NCBI RefSeq assembly: GCF_009371975.2
Contig: NZ_VIKT02000001.1
Coordinates: 124,535-188,534, forward strand
Source of the DNA: Microcella pacifica
GTDB lineage: Bacteria > Actinomycetota > Actinomycetes > Actinomycetales > Microbacteriaceae
Length of the DNA: 64,000 bases
Direction: 5' to 3'
In this document: in pieces, positions 16,414 to 23,671 of the stretch
How the letters are laid out: each line of letters opens with the position of its first letter
Numbering within the stretch: the stretch's first letter is position 1
The notes under the pieces: model-generated
Databases searched by the model: none
The model's input: the letters and a program-made list of their open reading frames with translations, nothing else
What the model was told of the DNA's origin: nothing
Translations under genes and position numbers: made by a program

Positions 16414-16429
16414 CGCCCCGCGCATCCCC

Positions 16430-16513
16430 GCTCACCCCGCACGACCCGCGCACGCCCGCTCACCCCACACGACCCGCGCATGCCCGCTCACCCCACACGA
16501 CCCGCGTGGCCCA
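16430..16513. repeat. Three 28-bp tandem repeats plus shorter repeats
   Basis: Units beginning GCTCACCCC(G/A)CACGACCC start at 16430, 16458 and 16486 (period 28). They run into two copies of a unit beginning TGGCCCACGCACCCCGCA at 16507 and 16525. There are no spacers. This fills the first part of the convergent gap between the DUF3515 gene and ddl. Confidence 0.85.
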
Positions 16514-16550
16514 CGCACCCCGCATGGCCCACGCACCCCGCGCAACCCCG

Positions 16551-16617
16551 CAGATTCGCCGCAAAACGGGAGTATCGCGCACCGCGAGCGCCCATTCGTG
16601 CCAGATCTGGCACGACA
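16551..16617. repeat. Dispersed palindromic repeat, copy A
   Basis: A ~67-bp unit starting CAGATTCGCCGCAAA and ending in the perfect 18-bp palindrome CGTGCCAGATCTGGCACG (16597-16614). It is very similar to copy B at 16658. It lies between two convergent genes and could act as a terminator or a REP-like element. Confidence 0.8.
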
Positions 16618-16657
16618 TAGCGCGCGGGTTCGCCCTCGCGCGCCGCGAGCGCCGCCG

Positions 16658-16723
16658 CAGATTCGCCACAAAGTGGCCGAATCGCGGGCGACGAGCGCCC
16701 TTTTGCGCCAGATCTGGCACCGA
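16658..16723. repeat. Dispersed palindromic repeat, copy B
   Basis: A second copy of the same unit, starting CAGATTCGCCACAAA and containing GAGCGCCCTTTTGCG followed by the palindrome GCCAGATCTGGC (16707-16718). Related sequences recur near 43.5 kb. Confidence 0.8.
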
Positions 16724-16765
16724 CGCCCGTGCGCGCGTGCGCGGGCGCGCGAGCGCGCCGCGCGG

Positions 16766-17914
16766 CTACGCGCGGGGGCCGTCGAGGCCGACGAGCTTGC
16801 CGGCGATGCCGCCCGCGGCTCGTAGCGCGGCGCCGCCGCCGAACCCGGCCTGGGGGAAGACTACGCGGCGGTCCCGGGCCTCGGTGAGAGCATCCACGAG
16901 GACGGTCGCCGCCGGCTGCTGCGGCGCCCACAGGTACAGCGAGAGCGCGCCGGGGATCGTGTTGACCTCGTTGACGTAGAGCTCGCTGCTCGCCTCGTCG
17001 AGCAGCAGGTCGACGCGCACGATGCCGGTGAGCCGCGTGACGTCCGCGACGCGCTCGGCAAGCTCGCGCGCCCGTGTGTGCACGGCCTCGGGCACCTCAG
17101 CCGGGAACTCGCGGGGAGCGCTCGTGAGGCCGGCATCGGCGCCCGCGCCGCCTGCAAGGTACTTCTCGGCGTAGCTGTAGAGCGCACTGCCGGCGGGCCC
17201 GCGCAGCGGCTTCTCGAGCTGCGTGATCTCCAGGCTCGGGAAGGTGCGGAAGGCGATGTTGAGGTCGACGAGCTCGGGGCGGTAGGGCTCGACCACGGCG
17301 CCCGTGCGCAAGTGCACGCTGCTGGCCGCGAGAGCGCGGGCCGCGGCGACATCCTCGGCGATCTCGATGCCGATCGAGGAGCCGCCGAAGCGCGGCTTGA
17401 CGATGTAGGGGCCCTCGAAGGCGGGCTCGGTGAGCGTCGACACCGCTTCGCGGGGAAGGCTCGGGATGCCCGCGGCCGACATGAGGCCGCCGAAGGCGAG
17501 CTTGTCCATGCCGACCGCGCCGGCGAACAGCGTGGACCCTGTCGCGGGAATGCCCAAGAGCGAGAACACCGCAGCGGCGCCGCCGCCCTCGCCGACGCCG
17601 CCGTGCAGGCACAGCAGCGCGGCCTCGAGGTCGAGGCGCTCGGCGCCGAACGTCTTGCGGCGGTACAGCCCGGGGTCGCCCGAGACGCGCGCTTCGAGCG
17701 GCGTCGACTCGCGCGGAGCGCCCTCGAGGTAGTCCTTCGCCTCCGTGCCCGCGGGCACGCGGAACCAGTCCCCCGTCGGCGACCAGTAGATCGGCACGAC
17801 GTCGTGACCGGCAGCGGTCAGAACGCGTTCTGCCTGGAGACCCGTGAGGATCGAGATCTCATGCTCGGGGCTCGGACCGCCGAAGACGACGGCCCAGGGG
17901 GCGGTTCCAGCCAT
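16766..17914 (-). CDS. ddl: D-alanine--D-alanine ligase
   Basis: A 382-residue ATP-grasp enzyme that makes the D-Ala-D-Ala dipeptide of peptidoglycan. Seen in order: VVFGGPSPEHEISILTG (N-terminal Ddl motif), CLHGGVGEGGGAAAVFSLLG, YIVKPRFGGSSIGIE, the loop YAEKYL and the terminal VNEVNTIPGALSLYLW. The Lys-Tyr in the loop matches ligases that add D-Ala rather than D-lactate. The ATG at 17914 has AAGG five bases upstream; GTG at 17920 is also possible. It lies 27 bp downstream of the membrane Mur ligase gene on the same strand, so the two are probably co-transcribed. Confidence 0.94.
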   Translation of the reverse strand: MAGTAPWAVVFGGPSPEHEISILTGLQAERVLTAAGHDVVPIYWSPTGDWFRVPAGTEAKDYLEGAPRESTPLEARVSGDPGLYRRKTFGAERLDLEAALLCLHGGVGEGGGAAAVFSLLGIPATGSTLFAGAVGMDKLAFGGLMSAAGIPSLPREAVSTLTEPAFEGPYIVKPRFGGSSIGIEIAEDVAAARALAASSVHLRTGAVVEPYRPELVDLNIAFRTFPSLEITQLEKPLRGPAGSALYSYAEKYLAGGAGADAGLTSAPREFPAEVPEAVHTRARELAERVADVTRLTGIVRVDLLLDEASSELYVNEVNTIPGALSLYLWAPQQPAATVLVDALTEARDRRVVFPQAGFGGGAALRAAGGIAGKLVGLDGPRA

Positions 17915-17941: not shown

Positions 17942-19540
17942 TCACGGATAGTGATCGGGCAAGTCGTTCTCATAGAGGATAACGCCCCGCTCCCCCGCGA
18001 CCGTGACCGCCTCGGCGACCGCGTGCTCGCGCGAGCGCACGGCGTCCGCACCGAGCGCCTCCGCCGTCGCCGTGCTCGCGTAGCCCGCGAGCAGAGCGGC
18101 CCGGTTGGTGCGTGCGACCGCGAACAGTCGCGCTCCGACAGCGCCGATTGCGGCGCCGAACGCGTGGTTGCGCTCGGCCTGCACGGGGCCGAGCTCGACC
18201 ATGCCCGGCGTCACGACGACGAGAGGGCCTCCCCGCTCGGCGGCGAGCGCCGCCGCGCTCTCGAGCGCGCGTAGCGACCCGACGGGGTTCGCGTTGTAGG
18301 TGTCGTCGATCACGAGCGCTCCGCTCGGCGACTGCTGCACCTCGGCGCGGTGCTGGGAGCCCGGCAGTGCGTCGATGCGAGACGCGATGACAGCGGCGGG
18401 CACACCCGCGGCGAGGGCGATGCCCGACGCGACCGCGACGTTGACGGCGTGGCCCGTGCTCGCGATGGTCACGGGCACCGGCTCGGCACCCCGGCCGAGA
18501 ACGATCGTCGCCCCCGCATCGCCCGATGCAGGAGACAGCACCACGTCGGCGTCCGTACCCGGCACGCAGCTGACCGTGACGACCCGCTTCCCGTTCATGC
18601 GGTCGGAGGAGGCAAGAGCAGCGAGACGCGCGTCGTCGATCGGCAGCACGACCGTGCGCGCACGATCGGTGATCGTCGACTTCTCCTGCAGAATCGCGTC
18701 CGTCGTGCGCATGCGTTGCAGGTGGCCCTCACCGATGACCGTGATGGCCGCGATGTCTGGTGGGAAGTGCTCGCAGAGCTCCGCGATCTGGCCGGGAGCA
18801 TCCATGCCCATCTCCGCAACGAACATCTCGGTGCCCGGCACGAGCTTGTCATTCACCGACCGGGCGAGCCCCAAACGATTGTTGAAGGATGCTGGGCTCG
18901 CGACCGTCGTGAACGTAGCGCTCAGCAGGTGGGCCACGTAGTTTTTCGTGCTCGTCTTGCCGTAGGACCCGGTGATCGCCACGACCGTCGGCCGCACCTG
19001 GGCGAGCCGCTTCTTCGCCGCGGCCACGTACCGCTGCGAGGCGGACTTCTCGACGGGCGCCATGATCGCGAGCGCGAGGTCGGTGAGTGGTGCGCTCAGC
19101 AGGAGCGTCAGCGCCGGGCCTGCGGGGCCGAGGAGGAGTGTGAGCGCCGCGCCGACCGCAAGGTGCACGACAACCCACACCACGAGCAGTCGCTTCACGC
19201 GCGACGTGACCGCGAGAGGCTTCGAGGTGCCCCGGAACCCCAGCCCCAAGGGCAGCAGGCCCAGCAGGACGATGGCGGGGAGCGGGAGCGCCTGCAGGGC
19301 GGGAATCGGCACGAGCACCGCCACCGCAATCGCCACGATGACAACGGCCGTCGCGGGGCCGGACCCCGGCTCGCGGCGCAGCCACAGCCAGGCCATGCGC
19401 GACACCGAGCCGGGTACGTAGTGCTCCCGCTGGGCGACGCGCACCCAGCGGCCCGCGATGAGGATCGCCGCGAGCGCACCGAGGACGCTTGCTGTGACCA
19501 CGAAGGGCAGATAGAGCACCGAGGCGACGATGCCGGCCAT
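17942..19540 (-). CDS. Membrane-anchored Mur ligase family protein (MurF-like)
   Basis: A 532-residue protein. Residues 1-160 contain four or five predicted membrane helices (for example LYLPFVVTASVLGALAAILI and LPAIVLLGLLPLGLG). From about residue 183 it is a Mur ligase: ATP loop TGSYGKTSTKN (190-200), NNRLGLARSVN, AEMGMDAPGQIAEL, and the MurF-type DDTYNANPVGS with a C-terminal domain. Canonical MurF has a soluble N-terminal domain that binds the UDP-MurNAc peptide; here it is replaced by the membrane part, so the substrate is probably different or lipid-linked. The ATG at 19540 overlaps the hydrolase stop by one base. The ligase reaction would be ATP-dependent amide bond formation; the acceptor is unknown. 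Confidence 0.85.
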   Translation of the reverse strand: MAGIVASVLYLPFVVTASVLGALAAILIAGRWVRVAQREHYVPGSVSRMAWLWLRREPGSGPATAVVIVAIAVAVLVPIPALQALPLPAIVLLGLLPLGLGFRGTSKPLAVTSRVKRLLVVWVVVHLAVGAALTLLLGPAGPALTLLLSAPLTDLALAIMAPVEKSASQRYVAAAKKRLAQVRPTVVAITGSYGKTSTKNYVAHLLSATFTTVASPASFNNRLGLARSVNDKLVPGTEMFVAEMGMDAPGQIAELCEHFPPDIAAITVIGEGHLQRMRTTDAILQEKSTITDRARTVVLPIDDARLAALASSDRMNGKRVVTVSCVPGTDADVVLSPASGDAGATIVLGRGAEPVPVTIASTGHAVNVAVASGIALAAGVPAAVIASRIDALPGSQHRAEVQQSPSGALVIDDTYNANPVGSLRALESAAALAAERGGPLVVVTPGMVELGPVQAERNHAFGAAIGAVGARLFAVARTNRAALLAGYASTATAEALGADAVRSREHAVAEAVTVAGERGVILYENDLPDHYP

Positions 19541-20289
19541 CAGCCCTGCCCCGCCGTCTCGGCGATGAGGGCGAGCAGCTCCTCGCGCACGGCCAGTTCG
19601 AGGTCGCCCTCGAGCAGGTGGGCGCTGCCGGGCACGACGCGGAAGGGCGAGCCGACGCGCTCGGCGGCCCGCCGCCCGGCCTCCGTCGGCGCCGCCGTGT
19701 CGTGCTCGCCCCACACGAAGCGCACGGGCACCGTGCCGGCGGCGAGGGCGTCGAGCTCCTCGTCGTAGGACTCGTTGACCACGCGCACGAGGACGCCGCG
19801 CAGCACGCCCTCGGCGGCGCGGTAGTCGGTGGATCCGCGCGCGTTGCGCAGGGCATCCATGCGCTCGTCGCTCAGCAGGCCGCGCCGATTCGCCCAGCGC
19901 GCCAGGCGATAGCCCAGCGGAGGCGCGGCGGGCGCCTGCAGCCTCAGCAACGGCACGCCCGTGAGAACGAGCCCGCGCACGAGCTCGGGGCGGCGCGCGG
20001 CCAGCCGAGCCGCCACGCGCCCGCCGAAGGAGTGGCCGACGACGATGACCGGCGCGTATGCCGCGACAGCCTCGGCGACCAGCTCGGCGTAGTCCTCGCT
20101 GCCCCACACGTCGTCGGGCGCCGGAGCCGGGCCGAAACCGGGAAGGTGCAGGCACACGGCGTCGAGGCCCGAGACGATCGTGCCGAAATCGGTGCCGTCG
20201 CGCGCCCAGCCGTGCAATGCGACGACCGTCGGAGGAGTCGCCCCGTGCTTCTCGGCGAGGACGCGGCCGCCGGCGAGGGTCGTGATCAC
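19540..20289 (-). CDS. Alpha/beta hydrolase
   Basis: A 249-residue alpha/beta hydrolase. The nucleophile elbow is VVGHSFGGRVAARLA, the oxyanion region VVALHGWARDGTDF, the acid is in FVWGEHDTAAP and the catalytic His in GSAHLLEGD. BioH-like esterases are the closest type, but the substrate is not evident. The GTG at 20289 lies seven bases after a TAGGCT box (20297-20302), suggesting a leaderless transcript that also carries the membrane Mur ligase and ddl. The TGATG overlap with the Mur ligase suggests a joint role in envelope metabolism, by inference only. Confidence 0.85.
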   Translation of the reverse strand: MITTLAGGRVLAEKHGATPPTVVALHGWARDGTDFGTIVSGLDAVCLHLPGFGPAPAPDDVWGSEDYAELVAEAVAAYAPVIVVGHSFGGRVAARLAARRPELVRGLVLTGVPLLRLQAPAAPPLGYRLARWANRRGLLSDERMDALRNARGSTDYRAAEGVLRGVLVRVVNESYDEELDALAAGTVPVRFVWGEHDTAAPTEAGRRAAERVGSPFRVVPGSAHLLEGDLELAVREELLALIAETAGQG

Positions 20290-20310: not shown

Positions 20311-20397
20311 CCACTCGCCCTGAGGCTCGACGCGACCTATCGCCTACTCCCCCTGAGGCTCGACAGCGCGCGCAACCTACTCGCCTTGAGGCTCGTC
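20311..20397. repeat. 33-bp-period triplication of the gpsA 3' end
   Basis: Three copies of a 21-bp block (the third is CTACTCGCCTTGAGGCTCGT plus one base) lie at 20311-20331, 20344-20364 and 20377-20397. The third copy encodes the last residues and the stop of GpsA; the two others lie just downstream in the gap before the hydrolase gene. Confidence 0.85.
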
Positions 20398-21459
20398 GGA
20401 ATCCGTGGCGAGGTGCGGGGCGAGCTCGCGCGGGTCGAGGGTTCCTTCGAGCACGCGCGCGACCTGTGCGACGATCGGCATCGAGACGCCCTTGGTCGAT
20501 GCCAGTTCGAGAATCGGGCCGACGGAGGAGAGACCCTCCGCTGTCTGGTTCATCTGGGCGATCACTTGCGCGAAGGCGTAGCCCTGACCGAGCAGCCGGC
20601 CCGCCGTGTTGTTGCGCGAAAGCGGGGATTCGCACGTCGCGATGAGGTCGCCGAGACCTGCGAGCCCCGTCATGGTCTCTGAGCGGCCGCCGAACGCGAC
20701 CGCGAAGTCGGTGATCTCGACGAGCCCGCGGGTGATGATCGATGCCTTCGTGTTCTCGCCGTAGCCCACGCCGTCGGCGATGCCCACGGCCACGGCGATG
20801 AGGTTCTTGAGCACTCCCCCGAACTCGGTGCCGACGACGTCGGTGTTGACGAAGCAGCGGAAGTACTCGTTCGACGCCACCTGCGCGACGGCGACGGCGG
20901 TGTCGCGGTGGGCGCTCGAGACGACGGCCGCGGTCGGCTGGCGCTTCGCGATCTCGAGGGCCAGGTTGGGGCCGCTCACGACGGCGATGCGCTCCTCGTC
21001 GATGCGCAGCTCGTCGCGGATCACCTCGCTCATGCGCAGCCCGCTGCCCTTCTCGACCCCCTTCATGAGGCTCACGACGGGCACGTCGGCGGGCACGATG
21101 TCGCGAATCGAGGCGAGGTTGGCGCGCAAGCTCTGGCTCGGCACCGAGAGGTACACCTGCTCGGCACCCGCGAGCACGTGCTCGAGCGAGTCGTGGCCGC
21201 GCAGATTGCCGGGCAGGTTGATGCCGGGCAGGTAGCCGCTGTTCCGATGCGTCTCAGTGATCTCCTGCGCAACCTCGCGCCGGCGTGCCCACATGACGAC
21301 GTCGGCACCGCCATCGGCGAGGATCTTCGCGAACGTCGTGCCCCACGAGCCGGCGCCGAGCACGGCGACGCGCGGCGCGTCAGCATCGAGGTTCGGCAGC
21401 GGCAATCGCACCGCTTCCGTCAGAGGCGGATGCTCGCGTGACGCGCCCTCGTCACTCAA
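20377..21459 (-). CDS. gpsA: Glycerol-3-phosphate dehydrogenase [NAD(P)+]
   Basis: A 360-residue enzyme that reduces dihydroxyacetone phosphate to sn-glycerol 3-phosphate for phospholipid synthesis. It has the Rossmann motif VAVLGAGSWGTTFAKIL, SVPSQSLRANL, SLMKGVEKGSGLRMSE, SGPNLALEIA and the catalytic-Lys segment FGGVLKNLIAVAVGIADG. The end reads DSDEPQGE, and its DNA is repeated downstream. The TTG at 21459 overlaps the end of plsC by eight bases; the Shine-Dalgarno is weak, and an internal start near residue 18 is possible. The reaction product feeds the PlsC pathway encoded directly upstream. Confidence 0.93.
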   Translation of the reverse strand: MSDEGASREHPPLTEAVRLPLPNLDADAPRVAVLGAGSWGTTFAKILADGGADVVMWARRREVAQEITETHRNSGYLPGINLPGNLRGHDSLEHVLAGAEQVYLSVPSQSLRANLASIRDIVPADVPVVSLMKGVEKGSGLRMSEVIRDELRIDEERIAVVSGPNLALEIAKRQPTAAVVSSAHRDTAVAVAQVASNEYFRCFVNTDVVGTEFGGVLKNLIAVAVGIADGVGYGENTKASIITRGLVEITDFAVAFGGRSETMTGLAGLGDLIATCESPLSRNNTAGRLLGQGYAFAQVIAQMNQTAEGLSSVGPILELASTKGVSMPIVAQVARVLEGTLDPRELAPHLATDSDEPQGE

Positions 21460-22237
21460 AGCGGCCCGTCTCGGCCTGGTTGTTCTTCGCGGGATCCCAG
21501 CGCTCCGCCGGCGGCTGCTCGTCGCGCAGGTCGCCGAGCAGGTCGGCGATCGCCGTCATGACGCGACGCGTGCCCTCGGCGAGCGTCGCCGAGTCGAGCG
21601 GACGCCCCTCGAGGTCGCTCAGGTCGACGGGATCGCCGATCTTGCAGTAGATGGTCTTGCGGGGGAAGAAGCTGATCTTCTTCGAGTAGCGCGCCATGAT
21701 CTGCTGCGTGCCCCAGTGCGCGGCGGGAATGATCGGCACGCCCGCGGTGAGCGCCATGCGCACCGCGCCGCTCTTGCCCCGCATGGGCCACAGGTCGGGG
21801 TCGCGCGTGAGGGTGCCCTCGGGGTAGATGATGATCGCGAGCTCGCGATCGACGAGCTGCTGCGCCGCCTTGAGCGGAGCATCCGGCCGCCCCCGCCCCT
21901 CCCGCTCCACCGGAATCTGACCGGACCAGCGCAGGATCGCACCGAGCACGGGAACACGGAAGACGGAGGCTTTCGCGAGAAAGCGCGGAACCCGCCCGAG
22001 CTTCCACATGAAGCGGCCCATGATGACGGGGTCGATCTCGCTGTAGTGGTTGGGCGCGAGGATGAAGGCGCCCTGACGGGGAAGCTTGTGGCCGTCGATG
22101 ACGGGGAACCGCGCCATGAGGGTCAGGAGCGGGAGGCACAGGGCCGCGATCACGTACCAGAGTGCGGTCTTCTCCCGGCGTCGACGGCGCGCGGGGCGGC
22201 CGTCGTCGTCGACGGTCGCGGGGGTGGCGTCAGTCAC
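21452..22237 (-). CDS. plsC: 1-acyl-sn-glycerol-3-phosphate acyltransferase
   Basis: A 261-residue PlsC-type acyltransferase that makes phosphatidic acid. Motif I is NHYSEIDP (the HX4D catalytic pair), motif II is GQIPVER, motif III YPEGTLTRD and motif IV VPIIPAAHWG. One hydrophobic N-terminal helix (ALWYVIAALCLPLLTLMA) would place it on the membrane. The GTG at 22237 is preceded by TAGCCT (22244-22249) at a six-base distance, so its mRNA is probably leaderless. gpsA overlaps its end, coupling two steps of phospholipid synthesis. Confidence 0.92.
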   Translation of the reverse strand: MTDATPATVDDDGRPARRRRREKTALWYVIAALCLPLLTLMARFPVIDGHKLPRQGAFILAPNHYSEIDPVIMGRFMWKLGRVPRFLAKASVFRVPVLGAILRWSGQIPVEREGRGRPDAPLKAAQQLVDRELAIIIYPEGTLTRDPDLWPMRGKSGAVRMALTAGVPIIPAAHWGTQQIMARYSKKISFFPRKTIYCKIGDPVDLSDLEGRPLDSATLAEGTRRVMTAIADLLGDLRDEQPPAERWDPAKNNQAETGRFE

Positions 22238-22303
22238 GGGTACAGGCTAGTGCGTGACGAATGCCGGCGCAGGAATGGAGTCGGTCATGACGGTGCGAGC
22301 AGC

Positions 22304-23671
22304 TCAGGAGGGCAGCTCGAAGTCGGCGCCCAGCTGCCGCAGCTTGTCGATGAACAGCTCGTAGCCGCGGCTGATGATGCCCACGTTGCTCACCGTCGAC
22401 GTGCCCTCCGCCGCGAGCGCGGCGATGAGGTGGCTGAAGCCGCCGCGCAGGTCGGGCACACGCACGTCGGCGCCGTGCAACGGGGTCGGCCCCGTGATGA
22501 CAGCGGCCTGCTCGAGCGGTCGGCGCGGCACGCGGCGCGTGATGGAGGCGAGCCCCGACTGGTGCACGACGATGTTCGCGCCCATCTCGTTGAGCGCCTC
22601 CGTGAAGCCGAAGCGGTTCTCGTACACCGTCTCGTGCACGACCGACTCGCCCTCCGCCTGGGTGAGGGCCACGATGAGCGGCTGCTGCCAGTCCGTCATG
22701 AAGCCGGGGTGCACATCCGTCTCGATCATGACGGGCTTGAGCGGGCCTCCAGGGTGCCAGAAGCGGATGCCGTCCTCGAGCACGTCGAATTCGCCGCCGA
22801 CCTTGCGGTAGACGTTGAGGAAGGTCATGAGCTCTTGCTGCGTCGCACCGCCGACAGTGATGTCGCCGCCCGTCGCGAGCGCCGCCGCCGCCCAGCTCGC
22901 GGCCTCGTTGCGGTCGAAGATCGCGGTGTGGTTGTAGCCGCGCAGCGTCTCCACGCCCTCGATGACGATGACGCGGTTGGGCTCGACCGAGATGATCGCG
23001 CCCATCTTCTGCAGGATCGCGATGAGGTCCATGATCTCGGGCTCGATCGCGGCGTTCTTGAGCTCGGTCGTGCCCTCCGCCCGCACCGCCGTGAGGAGCA
23101 CCTGCTCGGTCGCCCCGACGCTCGGGAACGGCAGGTCGATATCGGCGCCGACGAGCTTGTGGGGCGCCGTGAGGTGGATGCCCTGGTACGACTTCTCGAC
23201 GACCGCCCCGAAGGCGCGCAGGGCGTTGAGGTGGAAGTCGATGGGGCGGTCGCCGATGCGGCAGCCGCCGAGGTCGGGAATGAAGGCCTCGCCGAGCTGG
23301 TGCAGGAGGGGGCCGCAGAACAGGATCGGGATGCGGCTCGAGCCGGCGTGCGCGTCGATCTCGGCGAAGTGCGCGCCGACCACGTTGCTCGGGTCGAGCG
23401 TGAGCACGCCGGGCGCGGAGGAGTCGATCGCGACCCCGTGCGCCTTGAGCAGCCCGCTCACGACGGCGACGTCGCTGATCTCGGGCACGCCCTTGAGAGT
23501 GCTGGGGGTGTCGGCGAGCAGAGAGGCGACCATCGCCTTGGTGACGAGGTTCTTGGCGCCGCGCACTTCCACGCGACCCCGCAGCGGCTTGCCGCCGTGG
23601 ATGGTGATGCTGTCGGAGACGAGACCGACGCGTGCGGCGGCCTTCTGCGAATCCTGGGTGAGCGAGTTCAT
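22304..23671 (-). CDS. murA: UDP-N-acetylglucosamine 1-carboxyvinyltransferase
   Basis: A 455-residue enzyme of the EPSP synthase family that adds enolpyruvate from PEP to UDP-GlcNAc, the first committed step of peptidoglycan synthesis and the target of fosfomycin. The catalytic Cys is present in LGGCRIGDRPID (Cys137), unlike the Asp form that gives natural fosfomycin resistance. RGAKNLVTKAMVASLL, NAAIEPEIMDLIAIL and GGFSHLIAALAAEG are other family blocks. AGGAAAGG stands a few bases before the ATG at 23671. It is between plsC and leuD on the same strand, an order seen in other Microbacteriaceae. Confidence 0.95.
   Translation of the reverse strand: MNSLTQDSQKAAARVGLVSDSITIHGGKPLRGRVEVRGAKNLVTKAMVASLLADTPSTLKGVPEISDVAVVSGLLKAHGVAIDSSAPGVLTLDPSNVVGAHFAEIDAHAGSSRIPILFCGPLLHQLGEAFIPDLGGCRIGDRPIDFHLNALRAFGAVVEKSYQGIHLTAPHKLVGADIDLPFPSVGATEQVLLTAVRAEGTTELKNAAIEPEIMDLIAILQKMGAIISVEPNRVIVIEGVETLRGYNHTAIFDRNEAASWAAAALATGGDITVGGATQQELMTFLNVYRKVGGEFDVLEDGIRFWHPGGPLKPVMIETDVHPGFMTDWQQPLIVALTQAEGESVVHETVYENRFGFTEALNEMGANIVVHQSGLASITRRVPRRPLEQAAVITGPTPLHGADVRVPDLRGGFSHLIAALAAEGTSTVSNVGIISRGYELFIDKLRQLGADFELPS

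Follow-up and report, generated by a model that had tools for sequence, protein, structure and literature searches.

MurF is regarded as an essential and almost universal enzyme of cell wall assembly, and as a drug target. Within the window, the whole 64,000-nucleotide stretch of Microcella pacifica DNA that was analysed, an open reading frame on the minus strand (17942–19540) encodes a Mur ligase that carries a membrane domain at its N-terminus, hereafter TM-MurF, and the question is whether such an enzyme works beside a normal MurF or in its place. The genes and protein motifs of the window given below lie on the same strand.

The reading frame begins with an ATG and its product has 532 residues. 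Pfam placed Mur_ligase_M at residues 189–329 (E 4.1e-24) and Mur_ligase_C at residues 397–522, and two motifs, the P-loop ITGSYGKTS (residues 189–197; 18950..18976) and DDTYNANP (residues 412–419; 18284..18307), were read directly from the sequence and recovered in the alignments; the MurF-type ATP loop and DDTYNANP named in a preliminary description of the locus are thus in place. The top NCBIfam match was the MurF model TIGR01143 (residues 164–481, profile positions 54–368), with a score of 183.1 bits that lies below the curated cut-off of 288.6 bits. When TM-MurF was aligned with MurF, the P-loop, FNN, EMG, GE-HL, K287, N367, HRAE, and DDTYN-NP corresponded. For the AlphaFold2 model (pLDDT 93.0, pTM 0.89), the best PDB match by Foldseek was the MurF structure 4qf5 (E 2.8e-21), and VIA-align matched MurF 3zl8 (Z 36.6, rmsd 4.8, 357 aligned). 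The catalytic core of TM-MurF is MurF-type: the middle and C-terminal Mur ligase domains, the two motifs, and the closest solved structures are common to both proteins. TM-MurF differs from MurF in having no UDP-binding N-domain, in its membrane domain, in its ENDLPD tail, and in being encoded in a gene cassette outside the dcw cluster.

The membrane domain (residues 1–163; 19052..19540) replaces the UDP-binding domain of MurF, as judged from hydropathy, charge, and the AlphaFold2 model. Its hydrophobic stretches (residues 1–36, 58–103, and 115–163) are separated by K/R-rich loops, and the model contains only helices upstream of residue 185. No Pfam domain was found in residues 1–188, and Pfam recognised a UDP-binding N-domain in none of the 31 family members aligned (four from the genus and 27 from the 80 scan loci described below), a result to be read with the control in mind, in which PF01225 detected just two of three canonical MurFs, so that Pfam alone is a weak test for this domain. 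With hydropathy and the predicted fold in agreement, the earlier reading, that about 160 N-terminal residues form membrane helices where MurF has its UDP-binding domain, holds. Two further features mark the family: in the RWVRVAQREHY loop that follows membrane helix one (19418..19450), W32, R34, Q37, R38, and Y41 are invariant in all 31 aligned members, as is the C-terminal signature motif ENDLPD (17954..17971).

We found no canonical MurF, that is, no match to TIGR01143 over the cut-off, in the M. pacifica genome. PF08245 detected five Mur-type ligases, of which the dcw cluster contains three; the other two are TM-MurF itself and a protein of contig C10 that we take to be probably folC. The other weak TIGR01143 matches, considered as candidates for a hidden canonical MurF, were the three dcw ligases, the C10 protein, and a MurF remnant. 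The preliminary description had pictured an extra enzyme beside a normal murF that would be sought in the dcw cluster; this picture had to be abandoned, as the slot between murE and mraY holds only that 216-residue remnant. TM-MurF was present in 24 of 26 genomes of the genus (this one included; the two without it are about 71% complete), and no second, canonical MurF was detected at E 1e-12 among the 26. In all 34 other relatives of the set searched, the match was confined to the MurF-like part and started at residue 127 or later. A genus alignment was built from 17 of the 24 TM-MurF sequences; one sequence with an in-frame TGA (L027) and one at a contig end (L045) were omitted from the genus alignments. 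Because the genome has no canonical murF and its dcw slot contains a fragment, TM-MurF most likely serves as the housekeeping enzyme here. The D-Ala-D-Ala-adding enzyme of the whole genus, and of many other Actinomycetota, is most likely TM-MurF as well.

The architecture also recurs beyond the genus. A scan of genome contigs returned at least 556 stretches related to TM-MurF, and the best 80, which were analysed, all align with it, 79 of them from residue 32 or earlier; the exception (L147) aligns from residue 145 and lies at a contig end. A search for the same architecture thus succeeded both here and in 23 of the 25 other same-genus genomes, and this recurrence shows that the architecture is not accidental. 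By their labels, the best 80 loci come from Microbacteriaceae, Actinotalea, Nocardioides, Arsenicicoccus, Modestobacter, Acidimicrobiia, and others; two (L132 and L143) are labelled Acidobacteria, a label that may be wrong. No viral copy was confirmed. The idea that TM-MurF is universal in the class of genome G246, which is Acidimicrobiia to judge by how its loci are named, was rejected, with canonical MurF in 165 of 296 genomes. In a phylogenetic tree, TM-MurF stands apart from canonical MurF, which is represented by only three rows, with one long branch; the TM-MurF proteins of Actinotalea and Microbacteriaceae form neighbouring clades. A more distant version of TM-MurF was seen in family f26 (L239–L242) and in genus g214 of family f59 (L243–L244); at the two of these loci for which reading frames were listed (L239 and L244), a hydrolase-like and a Ddl-like frame lie beside it.

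What would such an enzyme act on? We think it fairly likely that TM-MurF replaced soluble MurF as the D-Ala-D-Ala-adding enzyme, most likely on lipid-linked MurNAc-tripeptide after MraY. Mur ligases form an acyl phosphate on the tripeptide, which is then attacked by the dipeptide. TM-MurF, held in the membrane by its N-terminal helices, would use ATP to activate the stem tripeptide at its carboxylate and, in a MurF-like manner, join to it the D-Ala-D-Ala that Ddl2, a ligase encoded beside TM-MurF, would supply; the step would take place after MraY, on lipid I or II, and the basic loops conserved in the membrane domain may lie near the pyrophosphate. We infer this activity, the lipid-linked acceptor, and the role of the loops; MurF chemistry is supported by the conservation of the P-loop, FNN, EMG, GE-HL, K287, HRAE, and DDTYN-NP. 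A lipid-linked step would also mean that MraY has to accept UDP-MurNAc-tripeptide.

A precedent comes from MurT of the MurT/GatD complex (lipid II isoglutaminyl synthase), which, like TM-MurF, is a Mur ligase without a UDP-binding N-domain. Working with GatD, MurT amidates D-Glu, and its C-terminal domain is DUF1727. The two systems differ in that TM-MurF is far closer to MurF than to MurT, and it is encoded between an alpha/beta hydrolase and a Ddl rather than next to the glutaminase GatD. In work on Staphylococcus aureus, MurT/GatD is described as amidating lipid I and lipid II but not soluble UDP-linked precursors (PMC6085368), and it is argued that a UDP-binding domain would clash with the membrane (PMC6113224). 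By this analogy, the missing UDP-binding domain and the presence of a membrane domain suggest lipid I/II-tripeptide as the acceptor, which is why we prefer it, and the membrane or lipid-linked substrate proposed in the preliminary description appears to be the most sensible reading. A membrane anchor is also compatible with a UDP-linked acceptor. TM-MurF might have replaced MurF and still use soluble UDP-MurNAc-tripeptide, its membrane domain only positioning it beside MraY for hand-over of the product. The evidence for replacement (no canonical MurF, and the mutual exclusion reported below) serves this reading equally, and the catalytic motifs are those of MurF; however, the helices-only N-terminus, the absence of a Pfam N-domain throughout the aligned family, and the lipid-linked substrate that goes with the same domain loss in MurT make it the less likely reading.

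The remnant in the dcw cluster raises the question of whether MurF function might be divided between two proteins. We take the gene order there to be ftsI-murE-(217-codon reading frame)-mraY-murD-ftsW-murG-murC-ftsQ-ftsZ, with names assigned by family resemblance. The remnant (12728–13378 of L006, minus strand, on contig C2 of the same genome, G000, and outside the window) has no ATPase domain; it matches positions 226–416 of TIGR01143 as well as Mur_ligase_C, is without a P-loop, and reads DDTGASTP where MurF has DDTYNANP. Its predicted fold (pLDDT 91.5) corresponds to the C-terminal half of MurF. A remnant-like match was found in 25 of the 26 genus genomes searched (this one included), 20 of which entered an alignment. 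Its dN/dS was 0.09–0.44 in close pairs (TM-MurF, about 0.11 in one pair) and reached 0.84 in more distant pairs, perhaps through saturation or misalignment. Since the remnant recurs in the genus, has low dN/dS in close pairs, and is predicted to fold, it is probably kept by selection. An assembly error as the source of the missing murF was rejected, given this recurrence and the slots read in five genus genomes.

We read what precedes mraY in TM-MurF genomes and, for comparison, in a few controls. Cassette-bearing Microbacteriaceae have a C-terminal MurF remnant there, of 337 residues in Marisediminicola and shorter elsewhere, and in Actinotalea (L201, L204, L205, and L210) murE and remnant sequence share a single open frame. 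In the Acidimicrobiia, Arsenicicoccus, Modestobacter, and Nocardioides examined, murE adjoins mraY with no remnant between them; weak second matches in Acidimicrobiia had first suggested a degenerate MurF of full length, but in the slots read this proved to be murE adjoining mraY. It is unlikely, then, that the remnant and TM-MurF form a two-part MurF: the recurrence, low dN/dS, and predicted fold of the remnant would fit such a split enzyme, but many TM-MurF genomes do without a remnant, and the remnant lacks both the P-loop and the N-domain, the very part that TM-MurF itself is missing.

The typical setting of TM-MurF in Actinomycetota is a cassette of an alpha/beta-hydrolase, TM-MurF, and a divergent Ddl. 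In M. pacifica, the hydrolase gene (19540..20289; 249 residues; identified by Pfam and conservation) ends in a stop codon that overlaps the ATG of TM-MurF, and ddl2 (16766..17914; 382 residues; identified by Pfam, NCBIfam, and alignment) lies downstream. The hydrolase is probably active, because at least 95% of the 74 rows aligned keep S87, D197, and H224; as a guess, it could remove or proofread wrongly loaded precursors. Among the best 80 of the at least 556 related stretches, the hydrolase was present at 74 loci and the Ddl at 69, on the opposite strand in three. Four of the six loci without the hydrolase lie at contig ends and two do not; five of the 11 without the Ddl lie at contig ends and six lack it despite flanking DNA. 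Downstream of ddl2 (16417–16761), a 28-nt unit recurs about five times and a unit of about 107 nt occurs twice; these repeats contain the palindrome GCCAGATCTGGC.

Upstream of the cassette are genes that we take, by family resemblance and gene order comparison, to be gpsA, plsC, and murA (20377..23671), a conserved context. In all four cassette-free Microbacteriaceae examined (L246–L249), the order is murA-plsC-gpsA-ddl, with ddl directly after gpsA, and the cassette here thus occupies the canonical ddl position of these sister genera. Ddl2 is about 25–27% identical to the canonical ddl products of the four. The M. pacifica genome has a second, shorter Ddl on contig C60 (G000:C60:37838–38743; L252), and short Ddls resembling it are encoded near the cassette in Actinotalea and in some other cases. 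In 18 of 50 genomes, the Ddl beside TM-MurF was the sole one at E 1e-20. Most likely, the cassette took over both the synthesis and the addition of D-Ala-D-Ala.

Ddl2 scored 157.5 bits against TIGR01205, under the curated cut-off of 245.65; apart from this score and its place beside TM-MurF it resembles Ddl, aligning over its length, matching PF01820 and PF07478 (the N and C domains of the D-Ala-D-Ala ligases, which have the ATP-grasp fold) over their cut-offs, and retaining the Y..KY region (Y248, K251, and Y252). That both Ddl2 and TM-MurF are divergent and below their family cut-offs could mean that the stem carries no D-Ala-D-Ala, and that the two attach another dipeptide or a depsipeptide, or work on a different polymer. 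Some Mur-type ligases do lie outside the classical series, and a structural match of TM-MurF to this group was seen: PgsB/CapB is a membrane Mur-type ligase with PgsC/CapC and PgsA/CapA as partners, and cyanophycin synthetase pairs ATP-grasp and Mur-ligase parts. These enzymes make other polymers, though, and the TM-MurF sequence is closest to MurF; with D-Ala-D-Ala ligases as the best matches of Ddl2, and with MurF lost while murE, mraY, murD, murG, and murC are kept in M. pacifica, which points to the same pathway, we regard such a role as very improbable.

TM-MurF is found where MurF is missing, and the pattern recurs in a sample of the phylum. We surveyed 398 Actinomycetota genomes with completeness of at least 95, calling TM-MurF at E 1e-60. 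MurF over the curated cut-off was present in 346 and TM-MurF in 45, of which a single one (G470) had both; the 353 genomes without TM-MurF included 345 with MurF over the cut-off and eight whose matches were broken, partial, or near the cut-off. Eight of the 45 TM-MurF matches (family f26) start only at model position 86–92, and three more are weak or partial (G394, G470, and G260). Fisher's test gave p of about 4e-49 for the exclusion, a value that is overstated because the genomes are related and the counts not independent; five families (f1, f18, f49, f59, and f73) include genomes of either kind. Starting from 46 of the best 80 loci, we examined the 46 genomes to which they belong, and three had a canonical MurF, all of them Nocardioides.

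In these three genomes and G470 (L253–L256), the canonical murF lies beside van genes. VanX exceeded its cut-off on all four murF stretches, and among the ten proteins scanned, VanA-type ligases and VanH-type dehydrogenases were each named in three of the four genomes. The four exceptions raise the possibility that these organisms require a soluble MurF to incorporate D-Ala-D-Lac. The linkage is consistent with such a need and is not proof of it, because murF is in any case present in van clusters of several actinobacterial orders (PMC8698665). That TM-MurF works alongside a normal MurF as an extra ligase dedicated to some special modification of the wall, as the four dual genomes might suggest, is scarcely credible when canonical MurF is absent from M. 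pacifica and from 44 of the 45 TM-MurF genomes of the phylum sample and the known exceptions are all linked to van genes.

In the open-licence PMC literature searched, we found no published membrane MurF and no report of murF loss in these groups. We give about even chances to a broader reading, in which MraY, and perhaps MurG, would work on the tripeptide in a large part of the Actinomycetota and D-Ala-D-Ala would be added later at the membrane, by an integral-membrane MurF acting together with a Ddl of its own and a serine hydrolase; the cassette would have spread between lineages and displaced ddl, and murF, no longer needed, would have disappeared or survived as a conserved remnant without catalytic function. 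Annotation with murF models misses TM-MurF. With canonical MurF absent from well-covered genomes and a membrane substitute present, the cytoplasmic Mur series is not fixed, and lipid-linked addition of D-Ala-D-Ala may exist. Taken together, these results suggest that wall building in these bacteria has shifted one of its textbook steps to the membrane.
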